Both the position numbers and the translations under genes were made by a program. Positions 16,741-29,767 of a stretch of 64,000 nucleotides of DNA are shown here, piece by piece. Every line of letters starts with the position of its first letter. Position 1 is the first letter of the stretch. Source of the stretch: Gammaproteobacteria bacterium (lineage in GTDB: Bacteria > Pseudomonadota > Gammaproteobacteria > Arenicellales > JAJDZL01); contig JAJEHQ010000019.1 of assembly GCA_022823625.1 (NCBI GenBank), forward strand, positions 1-64,000, in the 5' to 3' direction. Below the pieces are notes generated by a model. It had not been told where the DNA came from. It worked only from the letters and a program-made list of their open reading frames with translations, and did no database searches.

Positions 16741-16748
16741 GAATTTTA
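16741..16748 (+). repeat. Left 8-bp target-site duplication of the IS1595 element
   Basis: GAATTTTA immediately precedes the left terminal repeat and is repeated exactly at 19173-19180 after the right terminal repeat. Eight base pairs is the duplication length typical of IS1595-family insertions. Confidence 0.92.
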
Positions 16749-16772
16749 GGGAATTATATATTTAAGTTGACA
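16749..16772 (+). repeat. Left terminal inverted repeat
   Basis: 24 bp identical to the reverse complement of 19149-19172. Its inner end contains TTGACA (16767-16772), directly followed by TATAAT (16773-16778). A promoter part may therefore be embedded in the transposon end, although the two hexamers are adjacent and so cannot belong to one sigma-70 promoter. Confidence 0.92.
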
Positions 16773-16777
16773 TATAA

Positions 16778-16798
16778 TCGCTGGTGATTTTCCAGCGA
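16778..16798. promoter_or_regulatory. Hairpin/palindrome upstream of the passenger genes
   Basis: TCGCTGG (16778-16784) and CCAGCGA (16792-16798) form a perfect seven-pair inverted repeat with a 7-nt loop, about 20 bp before the methyltransferase ATG. It could be an operator controlling the cargo or an RNA hairpin limiting read-in from outside the element. There is no T-run, so an intrinsic terminator is unlikely. Confidence 0.45.
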
Positions 16799-16818
16799 TG
16801 TGTTAACATAATGATGTA

Positions 16819-17400
16819 ATGGCAAAAATGGAACTGCAAACCCGAATACAGAATTACTGTACTGAAACTGGCTATCCCAACGGTTTGTACGTTGGCGGTG
16901 ATGGCAGAATGCTTGGAATCTGGGTCATGGGCAATTCATATCAGGTTCAGTCTGGCTATTACGGCGGCTATCCGCATGGATACCTCAAAAGAGTAAAGGC
17001 CCTGTTTCCTGACAAAGAAAATGTGCTGCATATCTTTTCCGGCAAGGTTGATTTGGGCGCACTGCCAGGCGATACGGTTGACATAGACGAATCATTAGAG
17101 CCGACCTACTGTGATGATGTTCAGGATTTATCGACTGTGCCAGTTGGCAATTACGATCTCATACTTGCTGATCCGCCATACTCGGTTGAGGATGCAGAGC
17201 ACTACAAGCCGACAATGGTAAAACGGAATAAGGTCATGCGTGCATTGGGTCAGAAGGCGAAGAAAGGAACTCATGTTGTCTGGCTCGATCAGGTGCTGCC
17301 AATGTATCGAAAAGATCAATGGGATATGGTCGGCATCATCGGCATGGTGAAAAGCACCAATCACCGCTTTCGGGTGATTACGATCTTTGAAAAGACATAA
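16819..17400 (+). CDS. DNA methyltransferase-like passenger protein
   Basis: This 193-aa protein contains a Rossmann-type methyltransferase core. A motif I-like VLHIFSGKVDLG spans about residues 69-80, an acidic TVDID at 86-90 may bind the SAM ribose, and the catalytic motif IV LADPPY at 116-121 is typical of amino-group (N6-adenine or N4-cytosine) DNA methyltransferases. The N-terminal part (GIWVMGNSYQ, YYGGYPHGYL) resembles small phage-type methyltransferases. There is no obvious separate target-recognition domain. It is the first cargo gene and overlaps the next gene by one base (TAATG), so the two are probably coupled. Confidence 0.75.
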   Translation: MAKMELQTRIQNYCTETGYPNGLYVGGDGRMLGIWVMGNSYQVQSGYYGGYPHGYLKRVKALFPDKENVLHIFSGKVDLGALPGDTVDIDESLEPTYCDDVQDLSTVPVGNYDLILADPPYSVEDAEHYKPTMVKRNKVMRALGQKAKKGTHVVWLDQVLPMYRKDQWDMVGIIGMVKSTNHRFRVITIFEKT

Positions 17401-17870
17401 TGCAACCTTTACGCCTGGGCGTTGTCTACAAACTGGATTTGACGGATAAGATCAGATTCGGCCCGATAAAGAAACAGATACTTTACGAGCGGTTTACAGA
17501 TGGTCGCATATCAGGTCTGTTAGCTGAGGATTTGGCTAACTCGCTGTATAACAACCTGATGAAATCGCCAACGGAACGATCCAGTTATGACATCATGGAC
17601 GATAACGGTCATCGGTATGAATGCCGAACCATCACGCCAAGAGGTGCGAATCTGATACCATCAAACCAAATCGGAAAGGGAAGGCAATACGATGCAGAAG
17701 CTCATCATAAGAAAGTTGACAGTCTGCATGCCTATATCTTCACGGATATAAGGCATTCGCCAATTTTCTATATCGTGGCTATCCCTGTTGAACAATTAGG
17801 AGGTGCAAAGAACATCACAACAAAACAATTTGACCTGCTGGTTTCTGAAATGGAAGAAATCAGCCTTTAA
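17400..17870 (+). CDS. Putative restriction endonuclease, IS passenger
   Basis: I do not recognise a named family for this 156-aa protein. It is translationally coupled to the methyltransferase gene (one-base overlap), the arrangement expected of a compact restriction-modification pair. The segment SYDIMDDNG followed by YECRTITPRG (residues about 62-82) resembles a PD-(D/E)XK core with Asp64, Asp67/68 and Glu74, Arg76 replacing the usual Lys. A predicted strand (FYIVAIPV, 123-130) follows. Endonuclease function is an inference from context and this weak motif; a regulatory or other DNA-binding role is possible. Confidence 0.5.
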   Translation: MQPLRLGVVYKLDLTDKIRFGPIKKQILYERFTDGRISGLLAEDLANSLYNNLMKSPTERSSYDIMDDNGHRYECRTITPRGANLIPSNQIGKGRQYDAEAHHKKVDSLHAYIFTDIRHSPIFYIVAIPVEQLGGAKNITTKQFDLLVSEMEEISL

Positions 17871-17895
17871 CCACTGTTATGCAAGAGGAAACTAA

Positions 17896-18147
17896 ATGAA
17901 GAAAAACGAATTAAACGGAAGCGTCGATCTGCTGGCGAAAGCCATGCGGGACGTATTCACCGAATCAATGCAAGGTGTTCGTGAGGGAGTTCAGGAAGAT
18001 ATGAAAGTCCTTGAAGAAGGCTTAAAAGAAGAAATCAGGACTGTAAACGACACCACAAATCAGAACATGCAGGCACAGTTTGCTACACAGCAGAAAGAAA
18101 TCGGCAAGATTAAATCGAGTGTAGACAAACTGGCTAAGCGCGTTTAA
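17896..18147 (+). CDS. Small coiled-coil passenger protein
   Basis: This 83-aa, highly charged protein is predicted to be helical throughout (MRDVFTESMQGVREGVQEDM, then EEGLKEEIRTVNDTTNQ) with a heptad-like KIKSSVDKLAKRV end. The ATG at 17896 is preceded by AGAGGAAAC, a good ribosome-binding site, 25 bp after the endonuclease-like gene. Its 3' end overlaps the convergent transposase gene by 14 bp. Function is unknown; it may be an accessory or structural partner of the cargo or of transposition. Confidence 0.6.
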   Translation: MKKNELNGSVDLLAKAMRDVFTESMQGVREGVQEDMKVLEEGLKEEIRTVNDTTNQNMQAQFATQQKEIGKIKSSVDKLAKRV

Positions 18148-19093
18148 TCAAGTCCTTATACATCAATCTCTTTCCGGCCGTCATTGCAACCAAGTGCATC
18201 ATCTGATCAGCGGTGTCCATGCCCCTTACCCCATGACGGCCGGAAAACTCATTCACGTACCTTTGCAGATGTTTGACTGACATTCGGTGATATACGCCGG
18301 TGTGTCCACGCTTCATCATCGACCAAAACGATTCCACTCCGTTTGTGTGCGCCTGATCACGCACATACTCACCGACACTATGCTTGACTGATTCATGGTC
18401 GAACGGCATGCCTTCGTATGCCGCCGCATCATCGGTGTAGACTTTTGCGCTTGGATCAGTGTTTTTGGCAATGAAACCCTGAAGCGTATCTTTATCGGTT
18501 GACTCAACAACCTTTGCCCTGACTTCCTTTGTATCTCGGTCTTTGATTCCGACAACAGCAGTCTTGCCAGCAGTGCCGCGACCCAAATGCGCCAGCTCTT
18601 TGCGCTTCTTGTTGCTCATGTTCTTGCGCTTTCCGCCCATGTAGGTTTCGTCAACTTCAACCGGTCCAGCCATCAGCTCTTCAATACCGCTCAATTCCCA
18701 TGAATCACGCAGACGGTGAAGCATATACCAGGCTGTTTTCTGAGTGACTTTAATGTCTCGATGCAGCTTCATGCTTGAAACGCCTTTGAGGTTGGTGACA
18801 AACAGGTAAACGGCAAATGCCCATTTGCGCAACGGAACCCGAGACTTTTCGATTGTCGTTCCAGTGCGGACGCTGAAATAACTGCGACAGTCTGAACACC
18901 AATAAGGCATTGTCTTGTGGACAGCCTCTTTCGTTCGTTTAGACCCGCAATGCCCACAGACCCGGCCATCTGACCAATACACGGCTTCAAACCATTCGAC
19001 AGCCGATTGTTCGTCTGGGAACATATCGGTTAATTCGATCAGCGATATGCCCTTTCGATAACTTCTGCCTGGTGCTTTCTTAGTCATTTTCAA
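18134..19093 (-). CDS. IS1595-family transposase
   Basis: A full-length 319-aa transposase. The N-terminus has the conserved RKGISLIELTDMFPDEQSA start. A zinc ribbon follows (CGHCGS near residue 47 and CSDCRS near 66), then a helix-turn-helix region. The DDE/N-type catalytic domain (ISXO2-like) has VDETYMGGK (first Asp, about residue 149), YTDDAAAYEG (second Asp, about 220) and HTNGVESFWSMMKRG (third position, about 250). No frameshift or stop interrupts it. It reads toward the passenger genes and shares 14 bp with the end of the coiled-coil gene. Confidence 0.95.
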   Translation of the reverse strand: MKMTKKAPGRSYRKGISLIELTDMFPDEQSAVEWFEAVYWSDGRVCGHCGSKRTKEAVHKTMPYWCSDCRSYFSVRTGTTIEKSRVPLRKWAFAVYLFVTNLKGVSSMKLHRDIKVTQKTAWYMLHRLRDSWELSGIEELMAGPVEVDETYMGGKRKNMSNKKRKELAHLGRGTAGKTAVVGIKDRDTKEVRAKVVESTDKDTLQGFIAKNTDPSAKVYTDDAAAYEGMPFDHESVKHSVGEYVRDQAHTNGVESFWSMMKRGHTGVYHRMSVKHLQRYVNEFSGRHGVRGMDTADQMMHLVAMTAGKRLMYKDLIKRA

Positions 19094-19148
19094 ATCCTCA
19101 ATAATCTTCTACTGTCTTGTTAGAAAGTATAATCGATTTTCAATGATT

Positions 19149-19172
19149 TGTCAACTTAAATATATAATTCCC
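19149..19172 (-). repeat. Right terminal inverted repeat
   Basis: 24 bp, an exact inverted copy of 16749-16772. It lies 55 bp upstream of the transposase start, so the transposase promoter must lie in or next to this end. Confidence 0.92.
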
Positions 19173-19180
19173 GAATTTTA
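19173..19180 (+). repeat. Right 8-bp target-site duplication
   Basis: GAATTTTA, identical to 16741-16748, directly adjoining the right terminal repeat. Confidence 0.92.
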
Positions 19181-27668: not shown

Positions 27669-28755
27669 TATTCGAAGACTGAACGGATTTCCCGTTCGTC
27701 TTGACATCCCCTTGTTCCTGCTTGCACTGTTGCTTTGTTTGCTTGGATTAGCGGTTCAGTTCAGCGCGGGAGGTGAGGATTTGGACCAGTTGATTCGTCA
27801 AGCCGTGCGAATTGTGGTTGCAGTTGCAATCATGCTGGCTTTGTCGACAGTTCCAATTGAAGTTTTGAGACGTTTCAGTCCACCAATCTACCTAGCGGCA
27901 GTTGGGTTGGTAATTTTGGTATTAGCAATCGGCTTTACCGGTCGCGGGGCACAAAGATGGCTGGACTTGGGAGGTTTTCGATTTCAGCCGTCGGAACTGC
28001 TTAAATTGGCAATTCCTATGATGGTTGCTTACGTTTTGACTTCAACCTTTTTTAAGAATTATCGAAATATAGCCTTTTGGATCAGCGGTGTATTGGTGTT
28101 AGTACCTGCATTCCTTGTTTATCTTCAACCGGATCTCGGAACAGCTTTGTTGATTATCGCGGTCGGTGCCGCTGCAATTTTCTTTGGCGGACTCTCTTGG
28201 CGATGGGTAGGAATATCGAGTTTTTCGGTGTTGGCTCTAATCCCACTAATTTGGCCATTTCTCCAGGATTATCAAAAAACTCGTGTATTGACTTTATTCG
28301 ATCCTTGGAGTGACCCGCTCGGACGGGGATACCACTCCATTCAATCAATGATTGCTATTGGTTCTGGAGGAATTTCTGGAAAAGGCTGGCTTCAAGGCAG
28401 TCAATCGCAGCTTGACTTTCTGCCAGAGCGAAATACTGATTTTGTGTTTTCAGTATTCGCCGAGGAATTTGGTTTTGTAGGAGGAATGATTCTGATATTT
28501 ATATATTCACTATTAATTGCGCGTTGCTTGATGATCGCTTACCGATGTGATTATGATTTTGCAAGGATCGTTGTGTGCAGTGTTGCAATTATGACTTTTG
28601 TACATTTATTCGTTAACGTCGGGATGGTAGCTGGAATTCTACCAGTTGTTGGGCTGCCACTCCCGCTAATTAGTTATGGCGGAACCTCTATGGTCACGGT
28701 TCTGGCAGGGCTAGGACTGGTAATGGGAGCACAATATGCCAAGCGTACGGTTTAG
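27646..28755 (+). CDS. rodA: RodA, SEDS-family peptidoglycan glycosyltransferase
   Basis: RodA polymerises lipid II into glycan strands during elongation. The 369-aa protein has about ten membrane helices with SEDS features: LDLGGFRFQPSELLKLA, QPDLGTALL, LPERNTDFVFSVFAEE, and the ending LPLPLISYGGTSM. I place the start at TTG 27646 because AAGGG lies 8 nt upstream and no ATG fits; an in-frame ATG at 27592 would put 77 bp inside mrdA. It overlaps mrdA by 23 bp and mltB by 20 bp. Confidence 0.92.
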   Translation: MQLSLTTSIRRLNGFPVRLDIPLFLLALLLCLLGLAVQFSAGGEDLDQLIRQAVRIVVAVAIMLALSTVPIEVLRRFSPPIYLAAVGLVILVLAIGFTGRGAQRWLDLGGFRFQPSELLKLAIPMMVAYVLTSTFFKNYRNIAFWISGVLVLVPAFLVYLQPDLGTALLIIAVGAAAIFFGGLSWRWVGISSFSVLALIPLIWPFLQDYQKTRVLTLFDPWSDPLGRGYHSIQSMIAIGSGGISGKGWLQGSQSQLDFLPERNTDFVFSVFAEEFGFVGGMILIFIYSLLIARCLMIAYRCDYDFARIVVCSVAIMTFVHLFVNVGMVAGILPVVGLPLPLISYGGTSMVTVLAGLGLVMGAQYAKRTV

Positions 28756-29767
28756 TTCTTTTTGGACAAATTTTTCGCTTCTGATCGTGCTGAGTGTGCT
28801 TTGCAGTTTCTCTGTGGTTGAAAAAGCCAGCGCGGTCGACTTTGAAGAATATCCAGCTGCGAAGAATTTGGTTTCAGAGCTGTCGACAGATTCTGGACTC
28901 GATTCGGTTTGGGTTGAAGCAATCGTTCGAGATGCCGTTTATACGGAATCAATTATTGAAGCGATTACCCGTCCAGCAGAGAAATTTCCCTGGCACAGAT
29001 ATCGCAAAATATTCATTACCGATTCAAACGCAAAATTGGGTGTTAAATTCTGGAACACGCATGAAAACACTCTAAAGCGTGCAGAAGAAGAATTCGGCGT
29101 TGACTCCGCAATCATGGTTGCGATTATCGGTGTGGAAACGCGTTTTGGGAGAATCACTGGGCGTCATCGGGTAATTGACAGTTTGGTAACCTTGGTTCTT
29201 GGATACCCTAGAAGAAAAGATTTTTTCCAGAAGGAATTAGCTGAATTCATCAGGTTGGCGGATGAAGAAAATCTGAATGTGTTTGATGTTCGAGGCTCTT
29301 ATGCTGGCGCAATGGGAATACCTCAGTTTATCTCCAGCAGTTATAGAAACTACGCGGTCGATTTCAACGGTAATCAGCAGCGCGACTTATTGACAGAGAC
29401 GGCTGATGCAATCGGGAGCATTGGCAATTACTTGAGCAGACATGGCTGGTCAGCTGGCGGGCCGATCTTCACATCACTAACGCTAAAGGATGCCAATAAA
29501 GTCGAGCTCGTCCCCACGAAAGGATTGAAATCGGACCGGACATTTGGTGAAATTGCCGACCAGGTCAAACTACTCGATCAACAATTAACAATTGAGCCTG
29601 AACAAGATATTGGAGTTGTAAAGCTCGAAACAGCAGCGGATCAGTTTGAGTATCGAGTTGCATTTCCAAACTTCTACGTCATCACCACTTATAACCGTAG
29701 CAACTTGTATGCAATGGCGGTAACGGAATTGGCGAATCTGATTTCTGCCAAACGTAGCAAGAATTAA
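28736..29767 (+). CDS. mltB: Lytic murein transglycosylase B
   Basis: MltB cleaves the glycan backbone of peptidoglycan with formation of 1,6-anhydro ends. The 343-aa protein has an N-terminal signal region (about 10-33) without an obvious lipobox, so it may be soluble in the periplasm. The catalytic Glu is at 134 in IIGVETRFGR, and the later SYAGAMGIPQFISSSY segment is characteristic of the family. It overlaps rodA by 20 bp, and rlpA follows after 2 bp. Confidence 0.92.
   Translation: MPSVRFSSFWTNFSLLIVLSVLCSFSVVEKASAVDFEEYPAAKNLVSELSTDSGLDSVWVEAIVRDAVYTESIIEAITRPAEKFPWHRYRKIFITDSNAKLGVKFWNTHENTLKRAEEEFGVDSAIMVAIIGVETRFGRITGRHRVIDSLVTLVLGYPRRKDFFQKELAEFIRLADEENLNVFDVRGSYAGAMGIPQFISSSYRNYAVDFNGNQQRDLLTETADAIGSIGNYLSRHGWSAGGPIFTSLTLKDANKVELVPTKGLKSDRTFGEIADQVKLLDQQLTIEPEQDIGVVKLETAADQFEYRVAFPNFYVITTYNRSNLYAMAVTELANLISAKRSKN

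Follow-up and report, generated by a model that had tools for sequence, protein, structure and literature searches.

The element analysed here lies in a stretch of 64,000 nucleotides, called the window (contig JAJEHQ010000019.1, positions 1 to 64,000 of the forward strand, gammaproteobacterial assembly GCA_022823625.1). The element is very probably an insertion sequence (IS) of the IS1595 family, of the passenger-bearing kind termed tIS, which carries a two-gene type II restriction-modification (RM) module and belongs to a clade that keeps its transposase and exchanges RM or other cargo across phyla. That it is a transposon with a DNA methyltransferase (MTase) and a partner of the restriction endonuclease (REase) type is highly likely; with rather less assurance, the two predicted enzymes probably form an active cognate pair.

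The element is 2424 bp long (16749-19172) and is flanked on both sides by GAATTTTA, a scar that records an 8-bp stagger at insertion. Its two terminal repeats are perfect over 24 bp, and the inner portion of each is TTGACA, oriented inward (Table 1). The inverted arms reach 33 bp at 91%. No third place matching the 24-bp end with up to three mismatches was present in the whole window, and none arose in 100 shuffles. The repeats begin with GG, and the 8-bp duplication has the length usual for IS1595-family tIS; genes other than the transposase lie between the ends, as is characteristic of tIS. The transposase reads leftward from the right end, and the end of its gene overlaps that of an 83-aa gene. 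It scores 186.7 bits against NF033547 (NCBIfam IS1595; cut-off 75) and 135.7 bits against PF12762 (cut-off 27), and the N-terminal zinc ribbon PF12760, with 22.1 bits, falls slightly below its cut-off of 25.4. The zinc-ribbon cysteines C46, C49, and C66 are invariant in the alignment of transposases (A1), and D148, D221, N251, and E254 form the candidate active site. Because the transposase, the ends, the 8-bp duplication, and the size all agree, the element is a member of the IS1595 family. An earlier note, made from the letters of this stretch, had described perfect 24-bp inverted ends, an exact 8-bp target duplication, an intact DDE/N transposase of this family, and three plus-strand passenger genes, and all four were recovered here.

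Table 1. Positions of the features of the element in the window
Feature	Position	Strand	Remarks
Left copy of the 8-bp target-site duplication	16741..16748	none	GAATTTTA
Left terminal inverted repeat, 24 bp, perfect	16749..16772	+	GGGAATTATATATTTAAGTTGACA; inner end is the inward-pointing TTGACA
Small hairpin TCGCTGG-tgatttt-CCAGCGA	16778..16798		immediately inward of the left end; seen in the sequence
Phage-type DNA methyltransferase, 193 aa	16819..17400	+	DPPY at residue 118, FSG at 73
Probable type II restriction endonuclease, 156 aa	17400..17870	+	D64-E74-R76
83-aa open reading frame	17896..18147	+	probably helical by composition; weak sub-cut-off profile matches only
IS1595-family transposase, 319 aa, intact	18134..19093	-	NF033547 4.8e-55; PF12762 1.8e-39
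Promoter-like TTGACA-17-TATACT for the transposase	19126..19154	-	-35 within the right terminal repeat
Right terminal inverted repeat, 24 bp, perfect	19149..19172	-	GGGAATTATATATTTAAGTTGACA
Right copy of the 8-bp target-site duplication	19173..19180	none	GAATTTTA

The first passenger gene encodes a MTase. It matches PHROG 3816, named 'DNA methyltransferase', over nearly its full length (6.2e-48), and the PADLOC MTase_II profile at 2e-4. Twenty-four homologues were found in viral contigs from many metagenomes at 58-71% identity, among which DPPYS, FSG, and a KRNKVM motif are invariant. The AlphaFold (AF2) model has a pLDDT of 82 and was matched by Foldseek to S-adenosylmethionine (SAM) methyltransferases such as TrmN and Trm11 with a probability of 1.0. 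The phage family name and the DPPY motif point to DNA as the substrate. No match was obtained in Pfam or NCBIfam, and a single-sequence search of phage records at E 1e-3 was also empty. Relatives of either cargo enzyme were absent among the PDB sequences by phmmer and profile searches, and neither gene was found in plasmids.

The second passenger gene, whose start shares the last base of the MTase stop codon (a TAATG overlap), encodes a protein that matches the PADLOC REase_II profile PDLC03550 at 4.6e-15. Similar phage proteins are limited to those of Syn19 and Syn2. The Syn19 protein, annotated as the R.RsaI endonuclease, adjoins a dam-type methylase and matches PDLC03550 too; the link to the R.RsaI family, whose specificity is GTAC, is homology to this one annotated phage protein, at 24% identity and 8e-6. 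Relatives of the endonuclease were also found in seven viral contigs, and in all six that were translated a TSPPY methyltransferase lies directly downstream in an overlapping frame. The element thus holds a DNA MTase gene and, beside it, a gene of the REase type with homologues next to MTases in viral contigs, which is the arrangement of a type II RM system. In the predicted model helix and strands follow one another as would be expected for a PD-(D/E)XK core, with D64 and E74 on adjacent strands, and the best PDB matches (the 16 best Foldseek hits) are PvuII, NhoI, and Eco15I, followed by EcoRV and Holliday-junction resolvases. PvuII employs the catalytic residues D58-E68-K70, a spacing equal to that of D64, E74, and the residue two positions further in the window protein. 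When 369 genomes from the class and 398 from the phylum were scanned, PDLC03550 matched the window's gene only, so the REase family is rare; the gene was not found elsewhere in 109 genomes of the order. Taking the homology and the predicted fold together, we take the product of this gene to be a restriction endonuclease by descent.

The cargo described in the earlier note, a DPPY-type MTase translationally coupled to a gene with a possible PD-(D/E)XK core, has therefore mostly stood. The MTase assignment gains PHROG 3816, the viral homologues, and the SAM-methyltransferase fold; the coupling is borne out by the overlap at 17400; and the nuclease gains PDLC03550, the R.RsaI homology, the MTase neighbours of its homologues, and the PvuII/NhoI-like model, with the reservations set out below. 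The possibility that the two proteins are unrelated to DNA modification and cleavage, which the note had named as decisive against its reading, was looked at and found no support.

The same kind of cargo recurs in related elements. Relatives of the transposase are many in the order; 566 candidates were confirmed in GTDB genomes, and the best 80 loci were examined by seeking paired inverted ends around the transposase. This delimited 74 elements, 59 of them with identical 8-bp duplications, and after removal of duplicates and wrong ends 67 remained, 55 with perfect 8-bp duplications. Their ends share the form GGG(A/G)ATTATA..., often finishing in TTGACA. MTases are carried by 31 of the 67 (30 of the 66 others by phmmer, and the window's own). 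The modules are diverse: a MTase with a separate REase (L051, L058, L064, and L076), a C5 MTase with a NgoFVII-type nuclease (L057), and fusions of a MTase to HNH (L053, L054, L056, L059, L089, and L137), to the GIY-YIG-like T5orf172 (L066), or to Mrr_cat (L092). Certain MTase elements lack a recognised nuclease, and vice versa. The check proposed in the earlier note, whether the cargo genes co-occur with the ends elsewhere, was thus answered: the window's own genes do not recur, but different MTase and nuclease modules are present in about half of the related elements. Three pairs of elements show how this variety could arise, since their DNA alignment is confined to the transposase part (L145/L150, 81% over 980 bp; L132/L154, 78% over 1024 bp; L090/L095, 75%) and their cargo does not align; the transposase module therefore stays and the cargo is swapped.

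On these grounds a simple course of events can be proposed. The single transposase would act on the two terminal repeats and move the RM module as one unit, a mobility that the window element presumably retains. Within the module the MTase gene would be read first, with the PvuII/RsaI-like endonuclease coupled to it through the TAATG overlap, and because the genes overlap both enzymes are presumably expressed from one message. By general RM biology, the MTase would mark the host genome, and the REase, if active and of the same specificity, would cut unmarked DNA, which would provide defence against phages and make loss of the element costly; a selective benefit of this kind would favour its persistence. 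In the clade as a whole, the transposase module would be retained and RM or other cargo swapped as the elements spread across phyla, often among sponge symbionts.

Several observations weigh against this reading, and they concern the nuclease, the breadth of the cargo, and the insertion site. The endonuclease model is moderately confident (AF2 pLDDT 67), and its likeness to PvuII, NhoI, and Eco15I is weak (Foldseek E 8e-3; VIA Z 5.7, under the safe level of the tool). The catalytic ExK, kept in all phage homologues, is E74-C-R76 in the window protein only, and the enzyme may have little activity or none. Around the MTase homologues, the sequence retrieved from the 24 viral contigs contained no relative of the endonuclease, so the window's type of MTase looks like an orphan in phages, and the cyanophage relatives of the endonuclease are paired with a different methyltransferase class. 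These facts could be accommodated by a dead or reduced endonuclease in a modification or regulatory module, in which the MTase would protect or mark DNA in the manner of phage anti-restriction and the second protein would only bind DNA. We regard this as doubtful, although it draws on both the replacement of K by R at the catalytic position and the occurrence of the MTase apart from this endonuclease in phages. It sits poorly with the unbroken frame of the endonuclease gene and its close coupling to the MTase gene, with D64, E74, and the PS...G.GR motif being conserved as in the phage homologues, and with the clearly typed REases of sister elements.

About half of the related elements have no recognisable RM gene, and their cargo is mostly of no known kind, with single CsgG, RTX, ClpP, HTH (helix-turn-helix), and GmrSD proteins. 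Such breadth would be expected if the clade took any neighbouring DNA and the RM genes, common in sponge symbionts, were chance passengers. The controls make this account improbable. Among 140 cargo proteins, Pfam recognised N6_N4_Mtase 25 times, HNH 15 times, C5-MTase, T5orf172, and Mrr_cat three times each, and HindVP, NgoFVII, ThaI, and EcoRI methylase once each, whereas 140 proteins drawn at random from the DNA flanking these elements gave HNH twice and N6_N4_Mtase at most once (Fisher P ~3e-7 for the latter family), the flank figure being an upper bound taken from its absence among families with at least two members. By phmmer, 38 MTase matches fell in 136.9 kb of cargo and seven in 453.9 kb of flank, a density about 18-fold higher in cargo; the phmmer seeds were taken from the cargo itself, which favours the cargo, and the Pfam control is free of this bias. 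MTase counts by a simple motif expression were dropped as likely to include false calls (L091 and L146), and the phmmer and Pfam counts are used throughout. A general IS1595 control in the class delimited elements mostly of ~0.9-1.0 kb, together with one member of the clade (L220), and these are too few for a good comparison of length.

For the insertion site, the earlier note had proposed a comparison with empty sites in relatives. In a congener (G043), the flanks of the window element (93% and 88% identical) are contiguous and the element is absent, but the congener also lacks ~143 bp around the point of insertion, so a single GAATTTTA is unreadable there and the element's own empty site could not be read. 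A clear case is provided by a related RM element, L056, for which two congeneric genomes have the flanks joined without the element, contiguous at ~74% identity and with single-base gaps only. The comparison has thus succeeded for the related element and not for the window copy. For L053, both flanks are present in a relative, but the site there shows an additional gap, and this candidate was set aside as not clean.

The exact element is present as a single copy in its own genome. Among the relatives fetched, the transposase nearest to that of the window is from an acidobacterial metagenome-assembled genome (MAG; 68%). One bryobacterial chromosome (OX638379) holds a stretch of 1.6-2.1 kb with this transposase three times over (L163, L166, and L167), in nearly identical form (99.5%), which is evidence of recent multiplication in that host. 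In the element's own genome (G000), a cargo-free relative of 1.3 kb (L063, contig C19, positions 28209-29506) has the ends GGGAATTATCCATTTGAGTTGACA. Its right end turns up again close to the edges of contigs C9, C16, C17, and C44, so this relative is probably an IS present in several copies, at which the assembly broke. Contig C20 of the same genome contains a lone terminal-repeat-like match with three mismatches (L047, 50186-50209) and no transposase match, perhaps a remnant or a transposase-less derivative.

The best 80 loci are all from MAGs by title. They belong to Pseudomonadota (47), Chloroflexota (11), Acidobacteriota (7), Gemmatimonadota (5), and five other phyla, with four unassigned. 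Mapping the nine phylum labels onto the transposase tree takes 18 changes, against a minimum of 8 and a shuffled mean of 27.9, so that the clade shows phylum clustering together with several cross-phylum moves, part of which could be errors of MAG binning. Bin names link 26 of the 80 loci to sponges: five are bins of the Aplysina aerophoba study (accessions MPNO, MPNN, MPMI, MPNA, and MPNF), and 21 have COS, CAR, IRC, RHO, or APA names, which we take to denote sponge species of the study by Robbins et al. RM genes are enriched in sponge symbionts belonging to many phyla (PMC5649159, PMC8163846). Robbins et al. 2021 reported that such genes have passed laterally from one phylum to another, 'potentially mediated by MGEs' (mobile genetic elements), with no vehicle named. 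The clade is a candidate vehicle for this published but unexplained transfer, a link that we still only infer. A broader proposal, for which we see the chances as evenly balanced, is that this small IS1595 clade is a dedicated carrier of interchangeable RM, and perhaps other conflict, modules and a main vehicle of RM enrichment and cross-phylum transfer in sponge symbionts, and that a small protein absent from the window's element may serve cargo capture or transposition. Of the 67 elements, as many as 51 encode this protein of ~45-80 aa, whose C-terminal motif resembles TPExxAxALLR; about 38 of them do so at E <1e-4 after three profile rounds. It occurs with RM and non-RM cargo alike (e.g., L054, L059, L145, L150, L155, and L157).

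Spread across phyla requires some intercellular vehicle, and known IS1595-family tIS are mobilized by conjugation (PMC5704250). It could be imagined that the window's element is additionally an integrative mobilizable element like MTnSag1 or tISCpe8, moved from an origin of transfer (oriT) by a helper conjugative element. We consider this very unlikely: no relaxase is encoded among the four open reading frames of the 2.4 kb, in which oriT was not searched for, though a helper could supply the relaxase.

IS1595-family members with passenger genes were already known, as the earlier note had stated; MTnSag1/tISSag10 and tISCpe8 have one transposase, terminal repeats, and passengers dispensable for transposition (PMC5704250). 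The window element resembles them in these features and in its target duplications, but they carry lincomycin resistance, whereas it carries a MTase-endonuclease pair and its clade exchanges RM cargos. In Tn7-like transposons the cargo shows an enrichment of defence genes, those for RM included (Benler et al. 2021, PMC8649781); these transposons are large and multi-gene, whereas the elements described here measure 2-5 kb and combine a single transposase with, as a rule, one RM module. The movement of RM genes by IS and transposons is known as a general statement (cited in Oliveira et al. 2014, PMC4176335), compared with which the finding here is of one IS clade that bears numerous unrelated types of RM across many hosts. 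The closest known pair, that of cyanophage Syn19, likewise has an endonuclease of the PDLC03550 family beside a methyltransferase gene, but at 24-28% identity, in the order REase-MTase, with a TSPPY methyltransferase of 270 aa and with ExK rather than the window's ExR. The papers searched contained no description of recurrent RM cargo in an IS1595 clade, although RM-bearing IS1595 entries may exist in ISfinder or Siguier et al. 2009, which lay outside the search. What may be new is thus the clade with recurrent RM cargo, and not passenger-bearing IS1595 elements, RM on transposons, or defence cargo on Tn7-like elements. A defined element of 2-5 kb with clear ends makes the vehicle idea testable by counting ends per genome, reading empty sites, and measuring the share of RM genes that lies between ends. 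It also provides a simple model for the pairing of a selfish element with genes whose loss carries a cost, as well as a source of new compact RM enzymes.

Some smaller features of the element and its surroundings may be added. The element lies 166 bp downstream of a tRNA-Arg gene. The promoter-like site of the transposase agrees with the consensus at 11 of 12 positions and would by that measure be a good promoter, a prediction to be read with the finding that the count of such sites in the region is not above chance. Beside the element, between 19285 and 22541, a Fic-like protein with the motif HPYIDGNGRIGR can be read on the minus strand and a pair of HTH and HipA-like genes on the plus strand, suggesting a possible defence or toxin-antitoxin neighbourhood.

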